Shown in pieces: positions 2,173 through 39,282 of a DNA stretch of 64,000 nucleotides; within the stretch, counting starts at the first letter, position 1, and each line of letters starts with the position of its first letter. A model generated the notes under the pieces. It had not been told where the DNA came from and ran no database searches. It saw only the letters and a list, made by a program, of their open reading frames with translations. The position numbers and the translations under genes were made by a program. Source of the DNA: Cochliopodium minus (Eukaryota > Discosea > Himatismenida > Cochliopodiidae); NCBI GenBank assembly GCA_024220525.1, contig JAMYWO010000135.1, forward strand, positions 56,849-120,848, written 5' to 3'.

Positions 2173-2649
2173 CAAAATTTTTATAGTGCTTTCTATGGTT
2201 TATTTTTTTTTTATTTTTTTTATTTTTGCAAATATAATTTTCCTCAAAGTAAAAATTGAGAAGATCATTAGAAAAATCCTTGAGCAGATTAAATTTTAAA
2301 TAGAATTTTAAATAAACATTCAACTGTTTTCTTTTTTATAAATGTTTCTTCAAAGCTTTTTCTAATTTAGAAATTTGGTAGACATGTCCAAAATTTACAA
2401 CTTTGTTAGCGGATATTAATTTATGACTAACAAATTTTAAACTGTTGTAAAATTTTGAACATCTCTAGAAATTTGGAAGATTTATAAAATTAAATTTTGA
2501 AGATCTTGAAGATACTTTTTTAATTTAAAATGCTTTTTTACATTTGAGAATTAAAAACATTCTGAAAGTAGATTGAATTATCAAGTCCAGAAGATTAATT
2601 AATTTTTTGATCAACCTTTATAAAAAATATAAAAAAAATTTATTCGTGA
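2173..2649. other. Intergenic, AT-rich
   Basis: About 480 bases of A/T-rich sequence between divergently transcribed genes. It should hold both promoters. I see no coding exon, RNA gene or clear motif. Confidence 0.6.
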
Positions 2650-3118
2650 ATGGAAACAAAAAATGAAGAATTTGATATCATTGATAAAATACAAGGAGCT
2701 TTATCAAATAAAATCATATTGAATTCTATTTTTCTCATAATACCATTTATAATTGGATATTATAAAGGATCACAAAAACAAAAAATCAAAAATAAAAGTA
2801 AAAAATATATATAAACAAATTTTTTACCTTCCATTTTCAAATATTTTACCATCAGAATTGATGATGTTGACCAAATTAAAGATAGAGGAAAATGAAAAGG
2901 AATTATATTCAAAAACACTTGAATTTATAGATAATACAAGAGGAAAAGGAAATGATATCCATCTTTATCAAAATTCTGAAAATAGGGAAGAATATATGCT
3001 GATAGAAGAATGGGAGAATGCATCCACAAAGAAAATCCAAAACGATGAAAAATTAAGAACCAATTGGAGAAATCAATTTAAATCACAAGAAGAAATAAAG
3101 TATATTTCTTTTTATTAA
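2650..3118 (+). CDS. Small membrane-anchored protein, possibly ABM fold
   Basis: Two exons, 2650-2797 and 2856-3118, joined across a 58-base GTAAAA...CATCAG intron with matching phase, give about 136 residues. A hydrophobic stretch near residues 24-38 (ILNSIFLIIPFIIGYY) looks like a single membrane anchor followed by basic residues. The rest is soluble. The segment EEYMLIEEWENAST resembles the strand-helix motif of antibiotic-biosynthesis-monooxygenase-like (dimeric alpha-beta barrel) proteins, but that assignment rests on a short pattern and is weak. No function should be assumed. It is transcribed away from the myosin and towards CD2BP2. Confidence 0.6.
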
Positions 3119-9437: not shown

Positions 9438-10290
9438 CTACAAAAGGGTCCTTTTAATTATTTCGAACAAAACAAATTTTGGAATTTTTAAATTGGTTCT
9501 GTTTTGAATTCTTTTCATTGAAAAGAAAAAATAAAGAATGGTGCTATTAAATTGTTTTCCAAAAAAAGAGTGATTTTGAGGAGACCAATCTTTATTTACT
9601 AATTCAATTTGATAATGATCTTGATCATGAACAAAATCTAGAGCAAACACCCATTCTGAAACATCTTTTGATATAGCATATTCTTTCGTTTTCGTTTCTC
9701 CTTTAAATTCACACTTGAAAACCACTTTGTGATCTCTTTTTATTTAAAAATTAAATTTTAAATTAAATTAATATTTTTTAATGACATTGATTTTCCAAAA
9801 TATATTGATTAACTTTAAAGATAAATATTAATTTAGTTGTAATTCTTGCATATTAAAAAGTTATTTAAATTTCTAACCTTGGATAAAGAATAACAGAATA
9901 TATTATGTCTTTACATTTATTGGGATTCTTAATTTCATGGAACCATCTTCCCCATTTGGGTCTATCTTTTTTCGTTATAGTATCAAGGTAAACCAAATCA
10001 TCATATGGGCAATAAAAGATTCCTTTGTCGGAATCTCCTCCGTTATCGAAGCAATATGAAGATAACTTTCCATTGATTAAGAATTTCTCTTTTGGTATTA
10101 TCCCAAAAGAAGTCTGTGCATAATCACTTTTCAAGATTTTGATCTTCATTTCACAAATAGAAGTAAGAGGGATTATGCTCGTAGAAAATGCACTATCGAA
10201 TGCATTATTCCCTTTTTTGAGAATCTGTAATATCTTGGTATCAATACTATTTATTACTAAAAATTGTTTATTATACTCTCCAATCTCCAT
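9438..10290 (-). CDS. SPRY/concanavalin-like beta-sandwich protein, unrecognised
   Basis: Two exons, 10290-9878 and 9735-9438, spliced in phase, about 236 residues. The start is the ATG at 10290, just after a poly-A tract on the coding strand. A middle segment (SSYCFDNGGDSDKGIFYC, then a Trp-Gly-Arg-Trp patch) resembles the GxYCFDNGG/S pattern of SPRY-type beta sandwiches, and the C-terminal strands alternate hydrophobic and polar residues. No catalytic motif or membrane segment is seen. SPRY domains usually bind other proteins; the partner here is unknown. The last 40 residues are Phe/Lys/Arg-rich and may be less reliable. Confidence 0.55.
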
Positions 10291-17644: not shown

Positions 17645-17897
17645 TCACTTTCAAACTTATTTGAATTTAAATTAAATTGTTTCTAAAGAGTTTTCTTTCA
17701 CCGCTCTTGGTTTTAATATTAGAATGATAAGATTGGTTAAAATTTAATAACACAGTTTAATTTGAAAATATTTATACAAAAAAACATTCCCCTTGATTAA
17801 GCTCATTCACTTTGGTTTTAAGAAGTGTTGAGAGAGAAACTTTATTATGAGGAGCAAAATTGGTTTGGGAGGCTTCTTGATTTTTTTGGATGTTTTC

Positions 17898-19084
17898 TCA
17901 AACGAGCATTTGGAAATCAACAGCAAAATAAAGGTTATCTTCTTGAATTTTTTGGGGAAATATTTGTGTAAGTTTTGATTCTTTGGAATAAATTTTATAA
18001 CATAATTTTAAACAAAAAAAAAAAAAAGAATAAAAATATTTTTACCCCTTTATTAAAAAAAAACAACATTCTTGATGTTAACATGTAGTTTTTTTTTTTT
18101 TTACATTCTCTTTTCTCATACGTGTCTTTCAAGAACACTTGTAAATTGTTTTTTTTGTCCTTTTCATTGAACCATTGATAAGAGGTTTTACCTTCAGAGT
18201 CTTTAACTGTTCGGTAATTTTTTATTATTTTATTCATCGTTTTTTAAATATTTATTTTAAACAAGTTTTTAATTTTTTATTGAAATTATTTTTTTACTGT
18301 TCGGATCAGCTCCATAACTTATCATTAACAAGATTAATTCTTTTTTTTCAAAATCTTTTCTTGAATCAGCAAGGTAGACAAAAGGAGAATGACCACAGCT
18401 ATTTTGTAAATTAGGATTAGCCTTATTATCCAGCAACTTTTTTACAATGTTAAATCTGTGAAATTAAATTGATTAAAATTTCAAAAAAAAAAAAAATTTA
18501 AAATTGAATCAAAATTAAATAAGAAATAAGAAATAAGAAATAATAAATTAGTTTTGACAAAAAGTAAGTTGTCAATCATAGCAAAAAAAAGATTGTAGGA
18601 GAGTTGTATAAGATTCAGATTTTTATCACCATTATTCTAAATTAAATGCCATGTATTTAAATAAATGTTTAACAATTTTCATGTAGCAACTTTAAAAATA
18701 CATAATATTCTCGTTCAAAATGTTTGTTTCAAATTTATAAGACACCTTTGTTTAATATGTTTCAATTAATATGTTTAATTGAAATAACTCATATATAAAA
18801 TGTTAATTGTATCAATTATTTTTTATGTAACCTTCCTGTGAACAAGGCCATGTGTAATCCTGTATCACCATTCGTGCCTGGTTCATTCAAATCAAACTTG
18901 GGGTCGTTTATCATTTTATCAACACCCCATTCATTACCTGCTTTGCAAAGATCATATAATTTCTGTCCCTTATCGGTCGATATAAGAGCTATTTTAATTT
19001 CTTTTTGAAAATATATTCATATTGTATTTTATGATCCTTACTATCTTTAGTTCGAAAAATTTCTTTCATTTTGCTATTTCCCAT
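17898..19084 (-). CDS. Ankyrin-repeat protein
   Basis: Exons 19084-19042, 18988-18832, 18455-18298, 18206-18105 and 17938-17898 join in phase. The product begins MGNSKMKEIF and contains ankyrin repeats: TNGDTGLHMALFTG, then VKKLLDNKANPNLQ, GHSPFVYLAD and YGADPNIKDSEG. It is short (about 165 residues). Ankyrin repeats bind other proteins; nothing points to a partner. If the fourth exon is not spliced at 18105 the frame runs on into a Phe-rich tail ending at 17995, which looks like intron, so the spliced version is preferred. The first ATG lies only 14 bases from the apparent start of the opposing ankyrin gene. Confidence 0.7.
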
Positions 19085-19098
19085 TTTTTTTTTTTTTT

Positions 19099-20638
19099 AT
19101 GAAAAAAAACTGGAAGAGTTTATCAAGCAATTGATCAAAGATAATCCCAATAAATATTGGGATGACATTAGGAATCAACCTCCCTTGAATTATCTATTAA
19201 ATTGCAATTCTCTCGATATTGAATCTGTAAGAGTATTGATCAAAATGAAAGCAGATGTAAATTTGATAGATAGATCTAGAAAAACACCCTTGCAAATAGT
19301 TTGTGATAATGATTTGAATGGGGAAAATAAAGAGGAATATTTGAAATTATTGATAGAAAATGAAGCGGATGTGAATTTAAAAAGTTCATCATCAAATTAC
19401 AAAAATACACTCCTCCATATAATGATAGAAAAGAAAATGGCTACAAAAGAAATGATCAAATATGTGGTGGAGAAAAAAGCAGATTTGAATCAAAAAGACA
19501 GCAGGGAGATGACCCCATTCCATATGATCTGCTCCAATCATGAAGATTTGGATCAGATAAAAGAGTTTGTAGAATACAAAGCGGATATCAAAAGGGCGAA
19601 TGGATATGGAGATACGCCGTTACACATCTATTGCAGAAAATCGATAATAGTATGAATGTGATCAAATATATGATCGAAAAGAAAGTTTCTATCAATGCTG
19701 ATAACAAAAACATGAATACGCCTCTTCACATTTTGTGTGAAAGGGAAAACATCAGTGCAGAAATGATCAAATATTTCGTCGAAAATAAAGCAAGCGTAAA
19801 CATAAAAGGGGACAATGGCAAATCGGCTTTGAGTGTCATTTGCAAGAATGAAACTTTCGATTTAGAAATGGTAAAAGTGTTGATTGAAAACAAAATGAAT
19901 GTAAACCTCATTGACCAAAACGGAAACAACGCACTCAATTTTGCCTGTAAAAATAAGAATATGTCTTTTGAAGTTTTGAAATACTTGGTAGATTCCAAAA
20001 TGGATGTGAATCAGAGAAATAATGTTTCTGGATCAACTCCTCTCATCAGAATCTGCAAAAAATCCAAAATTAGTTTGGAGATGATAAAATATTTGGTTGA
20101 AAACAAAAGCAATGTCAACGCTTCTCTTATTGACCATCCTAAAAATACTTGTTTCTACTTTTCTCTTTTCAACAAAAATGTTTCGCTTGACATTCTAAAG
20201 TTTTTGATTGAAAGTAAATCTACTTTGATGACAAAAGGGAATGATTTATTGATCTATAATTATATCTCTTTATCTTCCATAATTACAGAAGAAACGTTGA
20301 TAACACTGCTTGCTCATCAAAGGTCCCACTTCAGATTAGAATTGCCCGAAGCTAAAGAAAATATTCTCGCTTTGTTTTCTGATTTCAAAAAAGGAAAGTT
20401 GTGGAATGTGAAGAGAAACAAGTTTTTCTCACAAGGTGATCAAGAGGTTGTTCTCACTTTGTTTCTATCTTTAAAATTGTTTTCTCAAGTAATAAGACAT
20501 ATTATCCCCAAACCTCTCATTCATGTTATTATCCAGTCAATTTTCTCTTTCGAAGAGGTGAGAAACTATGAACACATAACAAAAAGAATAGAAGAAGAGG
20601 AAGATCAACTTTATGATTTGTTTGACAGTGATGAATAA
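19099..20638 (+). CDS. Ankyrin-repeat protein with shared C-terminal module; frame broken
   Basis: Two long open frames, 19071-19655 and 19631-20638, overlap and carry one continuous ankyrin array (motifs such as KADVNLID, YGDTPLH, NMNTPLH, VNADN). The frame changes near 19637 inside an AAAA run; one extra A would restore GDTPLHIYCRK into the next repeat. The start is also unclear: the only nearby ATG (19099) is out of frame by one base across an A8 run. The C-terminal 100 residues are not ankyrin: they hold FKKGKLW, then LFLSLKLF and IPKPLIHVII, and match the end of the Arf-ankyrin gene at 35 kb. Either a gene with sequencing errors in homopolymers or a young pseudogene. Confidence 0.75.
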
Positions 20639-35014: not shown

Positions 35015-37263
35015 TTATTTGGTGTTAGTTTTGAAAGTAAGTAGTCTTTCAGTGACATAATTAGCCATAAAGTTGATAATCACGAATAATACAGGTTTAG
35101 GAACTCTGAAAAAATTTCTCTTGAGACACAGTAAAAAAGAAAAGGTACGGAATTTAAAATTAGGAGGGAAAAGATGGTGAAATTTGCTCATCCAAACGTT
35201 TCCATCTTCAAAACTTTGGATGACTTTGAAGCCGATATTTTTAGATAAGTTTTGGGACTTTGAATAAACAGAAGTTTTTATCTCTTGATCATAATTGATT
35301 TCAATGTAGGGGTTTGCTGAATGAATCAAAAATAAGCGGAAAAAGTCTTCATTCTTAATGTTTTTTGTGATCGAGTAGAAAAAGGGAGTATGTCCGTAAT
35401 ATTCGACCAAGTTGGGATCAGATTTTTGCTCGAGGAGATACTGTACCACTTTGAGTTGGCTGGATTTGTTCCTGCAATACCTTGATAATGCGGAGTTGTT
35501 ATAACTAATCACTTTTTTCACATCGATTTTTTGTTCAACCAAAAATCTTTTTTAGAATGAAATTAAATAAAAAATTTTGGGTAAATTATTCAAAAAAATG
35601 AACCTCAAATTCTCAAGTGTGACGTCATCTAAAAGGACATAGCTTAAAATGAAAGTTTCTCCATCTTTAGAAATAAAGTTCAAGTCTATACCATTCTTGA
35701 TCATCAGTGAGACAACACGGAAGTCTAGATTTTTGTGGTAGGACAGTGCAGAAAGCAAACAATTATTCTCGTTGTAGGAATTTCGAGAATTCAGGTTGAT
35801 TTTCAATTCAATCAGATATTTGGCCACTTCAAAGTTGTCTTCGTAAGAAAAAGAGAAAAGACAGCTTTCATTGTAATTATTGGGTGCTCTCACATCTACT
35901 TTCTGATCCACCAAAAGTTTTATGATTTCAATGTCGTATTTGGTATAGTTCCTCGTGTATAAATGCAATGCAGTATTGTCTGACCCGTCTTTGAGATTGA
36001 ATTTGCATTTGTAGTCTAGAAGAAGCTTGATTGAGTCGTAGGTAAGGGTTTTGTTGTGGAACAATCTGTGCAGACATGTTTCTCCCTCAGAATTAATGAT
36101 GTTTGGATTTGCTTTGTTCTGTAGAAAAAGTTCCTAATTAAAAAAAAATTTATTTGAAAAAAAAATATTTTAAATTAAATTGAAGAAAATATTCAAAAAA
36201 ATATTTTAAATTAAATTGAAGAAAATATTCAATTAGTTTTACCAAAATTTCTGCAGAAAATTCGGAATTAGAAGAAATGTTATGAAGAGGACTGTTTTTA
36301 TACTTGTCCGTAATGTTTGGATCGGCTTTAACGCTGAAAAGATACTTCAACACTTCTTTCGAAAAGGAGTAGCCTGCAGCCAAAAACAAGTATGTCCACT
36401 CATTGAAGTCAGTAGTTTTATTAACGTTGCTTTGGTCGATGTGCTGTTTAATAAACTCTAAATCTCCGTTTTTTTGGCATAACTCAGATCGGAGTTTTAA
36501 ATCTTCGAGTTTAAAACTGTTTTTGTCCAATTCTTGGATAAGCCAACCTAATCCCTCGTATATCCCTTTTCCTTGAGTGGCACAGCTCCCTACTATTCTC
36601 CATTTTCTGTCTTTGATTTGGTTCAAGTCGAACAATTGAGCCAGATACTCTATTTTCTCTGCTCCTGGAAGATCTTGTTTGTTTGCATACACCAACAAAG
36701 GAATTCCTCTTAGGCTTTCATCTTCCAAGAAATTGACTTCGAAAAAAAAAATTCAATTTGAAGTTTTCTCAAAAAATTTGTTATACTTGGTTGTTTGATT
36801 ACAAACAAATCATTCATAATTTTGCAACAGAAGAAGAAATAATTTCTATTTATTGATTATTAATTTAATATGATTATATTATATATTAATTATTATAAAT
36901 GAATTTTCATTAGTTTATTTTATACATAATTGGTCTTTGCTATCTTGAAATCTGGATTGATCAATGCTATCTATCATGTATATTATTCCCTTTATATTAT
37001 GCAATAAACTTCTATAAAAAAACATTTTTTGACACCCTAAATCCCAACTCATTATATTAAGATTTGAGTATTTAATTGTCTCTATATTCATTCCTGTATA
37101 AGGTATTCTATGGAGGATTTGTTAGGAAAATATTGGGTGATATGTTTTCTTATTACGTATAATCAATGTTGCCCAATCTCGATTTATAAAGAAAGGTTGT
37201 TTTCCCCACAGAATCCAATCCAATAAATATAATCTTTAATTCGTTTGAAAAAAGATTTCCCAT
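35015..37263 (-). CDS. Arf-family GTPase fused to ankyrin repeats
   Basis: Five exons: 37263-37157, 37107-36926, 36736-36243, 36133-35604 and 35546-35015, every phase consistent, about 614 residues. The N-terminal 180 residues are an Arf small GTPase: [12 protein letters not shown] with Gly2 as expected for N-myristoylation, P-loop GLDSVGKTT, switch II WDLGCQK (GGQ of Arf reads GCQ, catalytic Gln kept), NKQDLP and [16 protein letters not shown]. Then come about eight ankyrin repeats ([35 protein letters not shown]) and a C-terminal module ([26 protein letters not shown]) shared with the ankyrin gene at 19-20.6 kb. Arf proteins recruit effectors to membranes in the GTP state; here the effector arm may be the ankyrin array. 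No stop or frame break separates the two halves: SCATQG through the first ankyrin repeats lie in one exon. Confidence 0.93.
36159..36230. repeat. 36-base perfect tandem duplication
   Basis: Two identical 36-base copies, 36159-36194 and 36195-36230, in intron 3 of the Arf-ankyrin gene. Confidence 0.95.
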
Positions 37264-37827
37264 CAATTTTTTTTAATTTTAAATTAAATTTATAAATATT
37301 AAATTAAATATATAAATTAATATATAATTCTTTTAGATGTTTTTAAAAATCTTTTTAATGTGTTTTTTTTTATTAATGTATTGAAAAATTGTTTATTTTA
37401 ATATTCTCTCTTTTACTTATTCCTTTTTTGAAACAAAATTAAAAAACAGCTTTTGACTGATTTCATTCATTCATATAAGAACTTTTTTCAAAAACATCCT
37501 CTGATAACTGGATTTATGGTTCCTGTGTTCTTTCAAATCTGAAAGAATTATTTTATTTATCTTTAAAAAGGGAATTGTTGTACTACAACTAATTTGTCCA
37601 TTTTATTTATTTGAATTTAACTTTTGTACATGAATAAAACTTCAAATTTTGCAACAATTGTAGGCATAATATTAATTAATAGATTAAATAGATTTAGATC
37701 TCAAACATTAAAAACTATATTAGTTTTTTCAAAATTTTTAATCTTAAAAAAAACAAATTAAAAGAAAAATCGCAAAAGGATTTACAACATAAGTTGATTT
37801 TGGCAATAATCCAAATTGATAAAAAAA
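37264..37827. other. Intergenic, divergent promoters
   Basis: About 560 bases between the Arf-ankyrin and Sel1 genes, A/T-rich, with no reading frame, repeat copy or RNA gene that I can support. Confidence 0.55.
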
Positions 37828-39282
37828 ATGGAGAAAAAAAGATATGAAAACATGTCCGATGAATTCTCTCAATATTATAAAAGAGCTATCTTGGGCGATC
37901 CATTTGCCCGAGCAGTTTTGAGCTATAAATTATATTATGGAAATGGGATCGAAAGAAATCTCAAAGATTCTAAAGAATGGTGCCTATCGTCTTGCAAAGA
38001 GGGGAACAAATTTGGTTTAGCACTCAAATATATCTATGGATTAGATTGTAAGGTCGATAATGAGGAAGCCTTCAAATTATTGGGACAATTGGAGAATGAG
38101 ATGGATCATTTCACTGAAAATGATAAGGTAATTTAAATAGATTAATAATTTGACCATCAATTGAAATTGATATCTATTCATTTATTTTGAATTGATTATA
38201 TTTTCTTTATGAATCAGAACGAGATTATTGTATTCAGAATTTATAAATTATGTTTATATCAGATCATTTTAAGTATAATGCTTAAAATTATGGTGTTGAT
38301 TACTAGAATTGAAATCACTTTATCTTCATAATGCACTCAAATGATTTAACAAAAAAAAATTTTGGGGATACTCATTATGCCCTAGAATAACATATCTTAA
38401 TTAGAAAGAAAAATATTTTAATTTTTGTTTTGATTTCGATGCAATTCTTGGTTTTTGTTTGTTTGCTCGATAAAGTTTATAAAAAAAAATTAAAAATTAA
38501 AGGGAAAAAAAAAAATTTTACATAGGCCATAATTCTAAACTACGTAGGATTCATGCACAGCTCAGGCCGAGGAACAATTAAGAACCAAATGATAGCAAAA
38601 GAGTATTACCTGAAGGGAATAGAGCTGGGAAATGACAGCAGCATGTTCAACTTGGGAGTTCTTTATTTGAGCGGGTATCCTGAGAAAGGATTTAACCCCG
38701 AGCATGCTGTAGAATACCTCCAAAAAGCTGTTTTGATGGGAAATTCTGATGCTGAAGTGACTTTAGCTAAATGTTACGAGGTTTTTTCCAGAAAATAAAT
38801 TGTTCAAATTTTTTTTATTTTTTTTAAATTGAATTATTCTTCAAAATAAATATTTTTGTTCAGAGTTAATAAATTATTTTTTTTAAATTATTTATTAGCG
38901 TGGATACGGTGTAGAAAAAAATATAAAAACAGCAATCCATTACTACGAAAGATCCGCAGACCGAGGCAATTCCTACTCGCTCATGGCCATTGCAAACAAC
39001 CCTCAATTTTGGACAACCATCAACCTCGACAAATACGCCTACTACTACTTTAGGGCCATCAAAAACGACCCAAAATTCGAAAATATATTACGAGTACTCT
39101 TGAAAGAAAACAAAGTCACTTGGCTTAAGGAGTATCACGTTTATTGGGACCGATTGGAAATGTTGCAGAGTGGCATTGTTACTTTGCTGCTTGTTTCTAA
39201 GTTCAGAAGTTGTTCAAATGCCAAATTTTTCGTTAATGGCGTGTGTATGATGGTTATAAAACATTATTGTTCTCTCAATTAA
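37828..39282 (+). CDS. Sel1-like repeat protein
   Basis: Three exons, 37828-38127, 38526-38780 and 38899-39282, all phase 0, about 312 residues. Several Sel1 (TPR-like) repeats are visible: ARAVLSYKLYYGNGIERNL, MHSSGRGTIKNQMIAKEYY, NLGVLYLSGYP...EHAVEYLQKA and KCYERGYGVEKNIKTAIHYY. Sel1 repeats form superhelical protein-binding scaffolds, often in ER or signalling complexes. There is no signal peptide or membrane segment, so it is probably cytosolic. The C-terminal 80 residues are not repeats. Intron 1 (about 400 bases) contains repeat copy C in reverse orientation. Confidence 0.85.
38245..38490 (-). repeat. Dispersed repeat, copy C (in Sel1 intron 1)
   Basis: Reverse complement of the sequence shared by copies A and B: reading on the minus strand, TTTATAAACTTTATCGA, AAAACCAAGAATTG, AGATATGTTATTCTAG, GCATAATGAGTA, AAGATAAAGTGATTTCAATT and AAATGATCTGATATAAACA. 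It fills most of intron 1 of the Sel1 gene. Confidence 0.85.

Follow-up and report, generated by a model that had tools for sequence, protein, structure and literature searches.

An arrangement in which a short end-module stays constant while the recognition domain in front of it varies is typical of ubiquitin-ligase adaptors; in SOCS, F-box and BTB proteins the partner is ankyrin, LRR, RCC1 or a GTPase. TRIM23 consists of a RING, B-boxes and a C-terminal Arf domain, in this order; the GTPase domain of RhoBTB is atypical, and the ankyrin-bearing ArfGAPs ASAP, ACAP and GIT possess an ArfGAP domain acting on Arf, not an Arf domain. In Rab40, as outlined in PMC10509765, the GTPase is combined with a C-terminal SOCS box recruiting Cullin5. 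Combinations of ARF proteins with TRIM, BTB or F-box modules are on record in section 13 of a eukaryote-wide survey of the ARF family (PMC8358228), which counted 75 multidomain members among more than 2,000 sequences and noted that ARF members have repeatedly been drawn into architectures linked to ubiquitin. The main text of this survey contains no words starting with 'ank', and in the main text of a survey of dictyostelid GTPases (PMC8923023) 'ankyrin' is absent and 'ank' occurs once. At the level of titles and the beginnings of abstracts, no description was found of an Arf-ankyrin protein or of the C-terminal box presented below. Multidomain Arfs are already known, and the novelty of the architecture lies more in the box.

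The gene considered here belongs to Cochliopodium minus (assembly GCA_024220525.1, 44.65 Mb in 598 contigs) and lies in a window of 64,000 nucleotides with a GC content of 28.6%, the window being the whole stretch of DNA that was analysed. Its predicted product combines an N-terminal Arf domain, an ankyrin array and a short C-terminal box. The likeness to Rab40 consists in the presence of a small GTPase and a short C-terminal box of about 40 residues in one protein and, furthermore, in the CaaX-like tails that Ras-type box proteins carry in this genome. However, Rab40, as far as the above source describes it, is a Rab and not an Arf, is devoid of an ankyrin array, and its SOCS box, which contains a BC box together with an LPLP Cul box, shows no detectable homology to the present box. 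TRIM23/ARD1 and the BTB- or F-box-bearing ARF proteins (Vargova et al. 2021, in its account of these architectures) similarly unite an ARF domain with ubiquitination-linked modules; the differences here are the N-terminal position of the Arf domain, the ankyrin repeats and the unclassified box. In ASB proteins (ASB9 and ASB7 being compared by the names of their PDB entries) an ankyrin array is likewise followed by a short helical C-terminal box, but they carry no GTPase, and the present box is not homologous to theirs by the tests run. RhoBTB, linked to Cul3, likewise joins a GTPase domain and a ligase adaptor module in one protein, in that case with a Rho domain, the BTB fold and no known ankyrins. 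Finally, ASAP, ACAP and GIT resemble the present protein in combining Arf and ankyrin biology.

The original prediction made from this DNA was of an Arf GTPase fused in one protein to an ankyrin array. This Arf-ankyrin fusion gene, at window positions 37263-35015 on the minus strand, was confirmed, with its splicing predicted from the sequence: the 614-codon product is distributed over five exons and fits four GT-AG introns of 49, 189, 109 and 57 bases (introns 1-4), as follows.

Exon 1, 37157..37263, minus strand: start Met, Gly2 and P-loop GLDSVGKTT; the start aligns with that of the C41 paralogue
Intron 1, 37108..37156, minus strand: GT-AG
Exon 2, 36926..37107, minus strand: switch I (IPYTG) and switch II (WDLGCQ, followed by a gap of two residues)
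Intron 2, 36737..36925, minus strand: GT-AG
Exon 3, 36243..36736, minus strand: NKQDLP, SCAT, the Arf domain up to its end at about 36522, the linker and the beginning of the ankyrin array; the reading frame stays open across the domain junction
Intron 3, 36134..36242, minus strand: GT-AG
Exon 4, 35604..36133, minus strand: ankyrin repeats
Intron 4, 35547..35603, minus strand: GT-AG
Exon 5, 35015..35546, minus strand: end of the ankyrin array, C-terminal box, stop codon
C-terminal box, 35066..35200, minus strand: 45 residues, three helices predicted

Average GC content of the exons was 34% versus 16% in the introns. The Arf domain was complete, as the original prediction had it: the MGNLFSN start, the motifs GLDSVGKTT, WDLGCQ and NKQDLP and SCATQGKG were all found, and residues 6-165 matched the Pfam family PF00025 with 154.4 bits (cut-off 22.3), covering profile positions 12-173 of 174. 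It indeed runs without a stop into the ankyrin array, for which about eight repeats had been expected; Pfam Ank_2 gave 144 bits with eight matching stretches, and nine repeats were recognised by eye at residues ~209-519. As predicted, exon 3 (36736-36243) is shared by the two domains: it encodes the GTPase end and the opening repeats, and the junction between them lies in an uninterrupted frame. The last 60 residues of the product are non-ankyrin and include a recurrent module, the C-terminal box. No ArfGAP was matched by Pfam in the fusion protein at E<=10, and no F-box or BTB either in the whole fusion or in 20 boxes at the same threshold. The combination of Arf and ankyrin in one protein had been taken for an unusual architecture, in agreement with the count of multidomain members in the ARF survey cited above.

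Searching the assembly with the 614-residue protein brought up, apart from the gene itself, the paralogue C41. This gene, situated on another contig, has a 619-residue product encoded by four exons, which is collinear with the window protein from residue 1 to the box, with 207 of 618 positions identical (33%, E 1e-99). Pfam assigned 201 bits to its Arf domain, and its ankyrins scored above the cut-offs. The intron positions differ between the two genes, and in C41 one exon also spans the Arf-ankyrin junction. Among ankyrin matches in the genome, the C41 ankyrin exon reached E 1e-50 versus ~1e-24 for the next best, so that the arrays of the window protein and of C41 look like nearest relatives. 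A third gene, C519, starts with MGN and ends in the same box as the window protein; its Arf part is degraded, the first exon scoring 44 bits, above the Pfam cut-off. Its ankyrin-like pieces gave Ank_2 E-values of 0.0011 and 0.0014, below the Pfam cut-off, and Pfam found no ankyrin in its junction exon and last exon. One exon, delineated by eye, links the Arf end to the ankyrin-like start, with splice sites partly unsettled. Because of the sub-threshold ankyrin matches and these splice sites, we consider C519 a probable, not a proven, third Arf-ankyrin-box member. In C189, an Arf domain (89 bits in the scanned stretch) is followed by an intron and the box, without ankyrins (splice sites by eye).

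The Arf tree (26 rows, 173 columns) was poorly resolved and did not group the three Arf-ankyrin genes, with C519 forming a very long branch. Trees holding them together were not rejected and were slightly better (p-AU 0.63 with two genes, 0.68 with three). The linker and the ankyrin part argue for a common descent of the window gene and C41.

Judging from its sequence, the window protein is an Arf family member by descent. It was compared with C90, the canonical Arf of the genome (41% identity), and with human ARF5, and we presume that the switch and P-loop residues have the roles established in work on Arf1 and Ras. The P-loop (GxxxxGK[ST]), NKxD (as NKQD) and SA(T) (as SCAT) base-binding motifs are all retained. 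The predicted switch II change, GCQ instead of GGQ, is present: DLGCQ has Cys for the Gly of DxxG. The change proved to be wider, since two residues are gone after the Gln and, moreover, switch I has Tyr at the Thr position (IPYTG), so that the protein has neither the switch-I Thr nor the DxxGGQ typical of the Arf family. Only 14 residues precede the P-loop Gly versus 19 in C90, which points to a shortened amphipathic N-terminal helix. Gly2 is present, and the start MGNLFSN presumably agrees with the myristoylation pattern.

The other fused Arfs deviate as well, each of the four differently. C41 retains the switch Thr and Gly and has Ser for Gln; C519 has GKR in the P-loop, with the Thr/Ser lost, and lacks DxxG; C189 retains DVGGQ and has an odd P-loop start as spliced by eye. 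The decay of motifs is not limited to fused Arfs, since the single-domain Arf C171 (one open frame) reads WDIEANKQ, without DxxGGQ. These altered switch or P-loop residues make a classical GTP switch doubtful, and the GTP cycle of the fused Arf domains is probably not conventional. The proposal of a membrane switch carrying its own binding arm thus stands as far as the single Arf-ankyrin protein is concerned, and the conventional switch is the doubtful part. It should be added that the Arf profile search of the genome gave 129 exon-level matches, the weaker of which include other Ras-type GTPases, and that C90 and C127 had equal top scores.

The C-terminal box comprises about 45 residues and can be roughly written as W-x(5)-H-x-L-F-P-x(2)-F-K-x(3,4)-F-x-F-L-L-C-L-K-x(5-12)-I-P-K-P-x-L-x(2)-I-I. 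Searching the genome with one box query revealed at least 150 places, all those listed having E<0.03 (150 of 279 candidates scored); two further queries gave at least 150 each (150 of 311 and 150 of 705 candidates scored), with places partly shared, and for the genome as a whole 150 places is therefore a lower bound. In an alignment of 20 chosen boxes, W and H were invariant and P-K nearly so. This alignment left out the box loci L061, L063, L068, L069, L073, L074, L075 and L076, and the box of L073 has F and Y where the chosen boxes have the invariant W and H; an alignment of 28 rows had zero invariant columns, with W, P and K at >=90%. The structure of the exon-5 stretch, modelled with 28 sequences, had a mean pLDDT of 81, rising to 95-97 over residues 121-160. 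In the numbering of this model, the predicted box helices are a short one at 122-127, a long one at 130-145 and a third at 152-162 after a VPKP turn.

In Pfam and NCBIfam, any family hit at E<=10 was hit by just one of the 20 boxes, and the profile of these boxes returned nothing from the PDB sequences at E<=10. Foldseek gave no significant match for the ankyrin-containing exon-5 model; in the structure search only the ankyrin part preceding the box was aligned to known ankyrin chains. With one box query, no confirmed relative was seen in 24 pattern stretches of viral contigs or in 177 of prokaryote genomes, in a scan that detects close relatives only. The SOCS box was considered as a possible homologue, without success. 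SOCS_box was absent from the Pfam matches of the 20 boxes at E<=10, and the Pfam SOCS_box profile had zero places in the genome at E<=1, in a weak test with a 39-position profile and no eukaryotic positive control. In hhalign, the 20 boxes against a two-row SOCS profile reached a probability of 0.1%, with 57 of 100 column-shuffled controls scoring as high or higher, and we conclude that homology is not detectable by these tests.

The proteins carrying the box are diverse. Eight further box loci were taken with their upstream sequence (L082-L089), and seven of them have a partner domain above the Pfam cut-off: ankyrin in L082 and L087, LRR_6 in L083 (G000:C65), where a leucine-rich-repeat open frame of 562 codons ends in the box, RCC1 in L084, L085 and L088, and RCC1_2 in L086 (22.3 against a cut-off of 22). 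In L089, Ank_4 was seen only at E 0.045. Seventeen ankyrin loci were fetched (L019, L021, L022, L024, L025 and L027-L038), eight of which have the box in the flank (L024, L027, L028, L033, L034, L035, L037 and L038) and nine are without it inside the fetched flank; L033 and L038 represent one gene, and L028 lies inside the window.

Ras-type GTPases constitute another group of partners. By eye, at least ten places have a box 67-347 bases behind a same-strand Ras match, with an eleventh in L080. A scripted proximity count, which took in 43 of 129 Arf matches, 150 of 164 Ras matches and the listed matches of the first box query, found four boxes within 100 bases behind a Ras match; on the opposite strand, by comparison, a single neighbour was seen, at 205 bases, and on the same strand no box lay upstream up to a distance of 600 bases. 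L080 (G000:C34:171700-176700) harbours four Ras-type GTPase and box genes in tandem and L081 (G000:C51) a fifth, and the open reading frames of all five score above the Ras cut-off. Four of them end in the CaaX-like tails CIIS, CLIN, CLIN and CVLN (three of these in the L080 cluster) and the fifth, also in L080, is cut by the stretch end. Judging from these tails, each such Ras-box protein would carry a GTPase, the box and a probable lipid anchor. The first L080 gene reads, by eye, CEPEPVDYF in place of the Rab DTAGQE motif, so switch II has been lost outside the Arf versions as well.

A wrong joining of two neighbouring genes (one Arf and one ankyrin), an assembly chimera or a pseudogene might be suspected behind the window locus, the gene model being drawn from DNA alone. 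Evidence of a separate start codon at the ankyrin part, which the original prediction had named as speaking against a fusion, was looked for. There is no in-frame Met between residues 80 and 405; Met 405 could start a short ankyrin product, and any such ATG-started product would consequently lack about the first six repeats. However, exon 3 spans the junction without a stop, and the spliced frame 0 is clean over 614 codons, its only stop being the terminal one, whereas the two alternative frames contain 40 and 48 stops. Furthermore, the same join is retained in the 33%-identical paralogue and probably in C519. Since C41 carries the fusion on a different contig, it is very unlikely that the assembly is wrong here or that two genes run into each other by chance, and explanations of this kind are on the whole highly improbable.

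Given a genuine fusion, its sharing of the box with many other proteins is the best clue to function. We tentatively favour a membrane-targeted three-module adaptor, whose box would dock to a common machinery. A cullin-type ubiquitin ligase appears the most likely candidate, because the box is a constant short end behind variable ankyrin, LRR, RCC1 or small GTPase parts; cullins were found by search at several loci of the genome. The modules, their order, their conservation in the paralogue and the partners of the box can be read from the sequences themselves. The Arf-derived domain, probably N-myristoylated, would bring the protein to a membrane and could have kept its capacity for nucleotide binding, without acting as a normal GTP switch; the ankyrin array may bind a particular partner or cargo; and the box might dock the whole protein onto machinery common to the box proteins of the organism. 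In this manner, the Arf-ankyrin protein would ubiquitinate ankyrin-bound clients at one membrane, a step that is possibly involved, as suggested by the architecture and by analogy with Rab40 and TRIM23. If, on the other hand, the Arf part were a relic serving only as lipid anchor or folding platform, the ankyrins and the box could function in a non-ubiquitin scaffold, for instance with the box as a homotypic assembly module. The loss of GTP motifs across the family and the occurrence of the box on very different proteins, as expected of a homotypic interaction module, are in line with this; but the window Arf still has P-loop, NKQD and SCAT, the Arf-box gene C189 has DVGGQ, and binding between boxes is a supposition, so we consider such a scaffold unlikely. 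Even less probable, in our opinion, is a working GTP-regulated trafficking protein, in which the Arf domain would cycle between membrane (GTP) and cytosol (GDP) with the ankyrin effector arm carried along, and the box would cap the ankyrin stack or aid dimerisation. The intact Gly2, P-loop, NKQD and SCAT and the Arf score of 154 bits would suit it, against which stand the switch-I Tyr, the Cys in DxxG and the two absent switch II residues, the missing catalytic Gln of C41, and the missing P-loop Thr/Ser and DxxG of C519. Moreover, the box is also found on non-ankyrin proteins (Ras-type GTPases, RCC1 and LRR), and hence is not merely an ankyrin cap.

Extending the favoured adaptor reading, the box may represent an undescribed adaptor module of this lineage, parallel to SOCS, F-box and BTB, which would couple receptors of the ankyrin, LRR and RCC1 types, and Ras- or Arf-type GTPases with lipid anchors, to one machinery, with altered-switch domains addressing ubiquitin ligases to particular membranes; in this full form the proposal is speculative and somewhat unlikely. 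The box constitutes an uncharacterised domain family, and its presence on many other proteins of the genome points to docking on a common system, by which proteins might be marked for destruction. The Arf-ankyrin family, together with the Ras-type GTPase, LRR and RCC1 box proteins, could be another independent invention of the 'GTPase as address, box as enzyme' principle.

Several minor observations concern the box genes and the surroundings of the Arf genes. RCC1-repeat genes (L084, L085, L086 and L088) have many small exons followed by a box exon of ~47-56 codons, and among the matches listed some RCC1-type box exons are up to 96% identical, which points to a recent expansion. Three more boxes were present in the window, namely a match at 9447-9590 (minus strand) and those of the open reading frames 17810-18007 (minus strand) and 19544-20635 (plus strand), the last located near the end of a 364-codon ankyrin frame. 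In L053 (G000:C3), a 197-codon box frame at 2336-2926 (plus strand) lies between two Arf genes of the same strand, with no other domain recognised in it by eye. The opposite-strand neighbour of the window gene, an open reading frame at 37810-38136 (plus strand), contains a Sel1-like stretch (24.8 bits against a cut-off of 30.7), and a frame similar by eye is found next to the Arf gene in L050.
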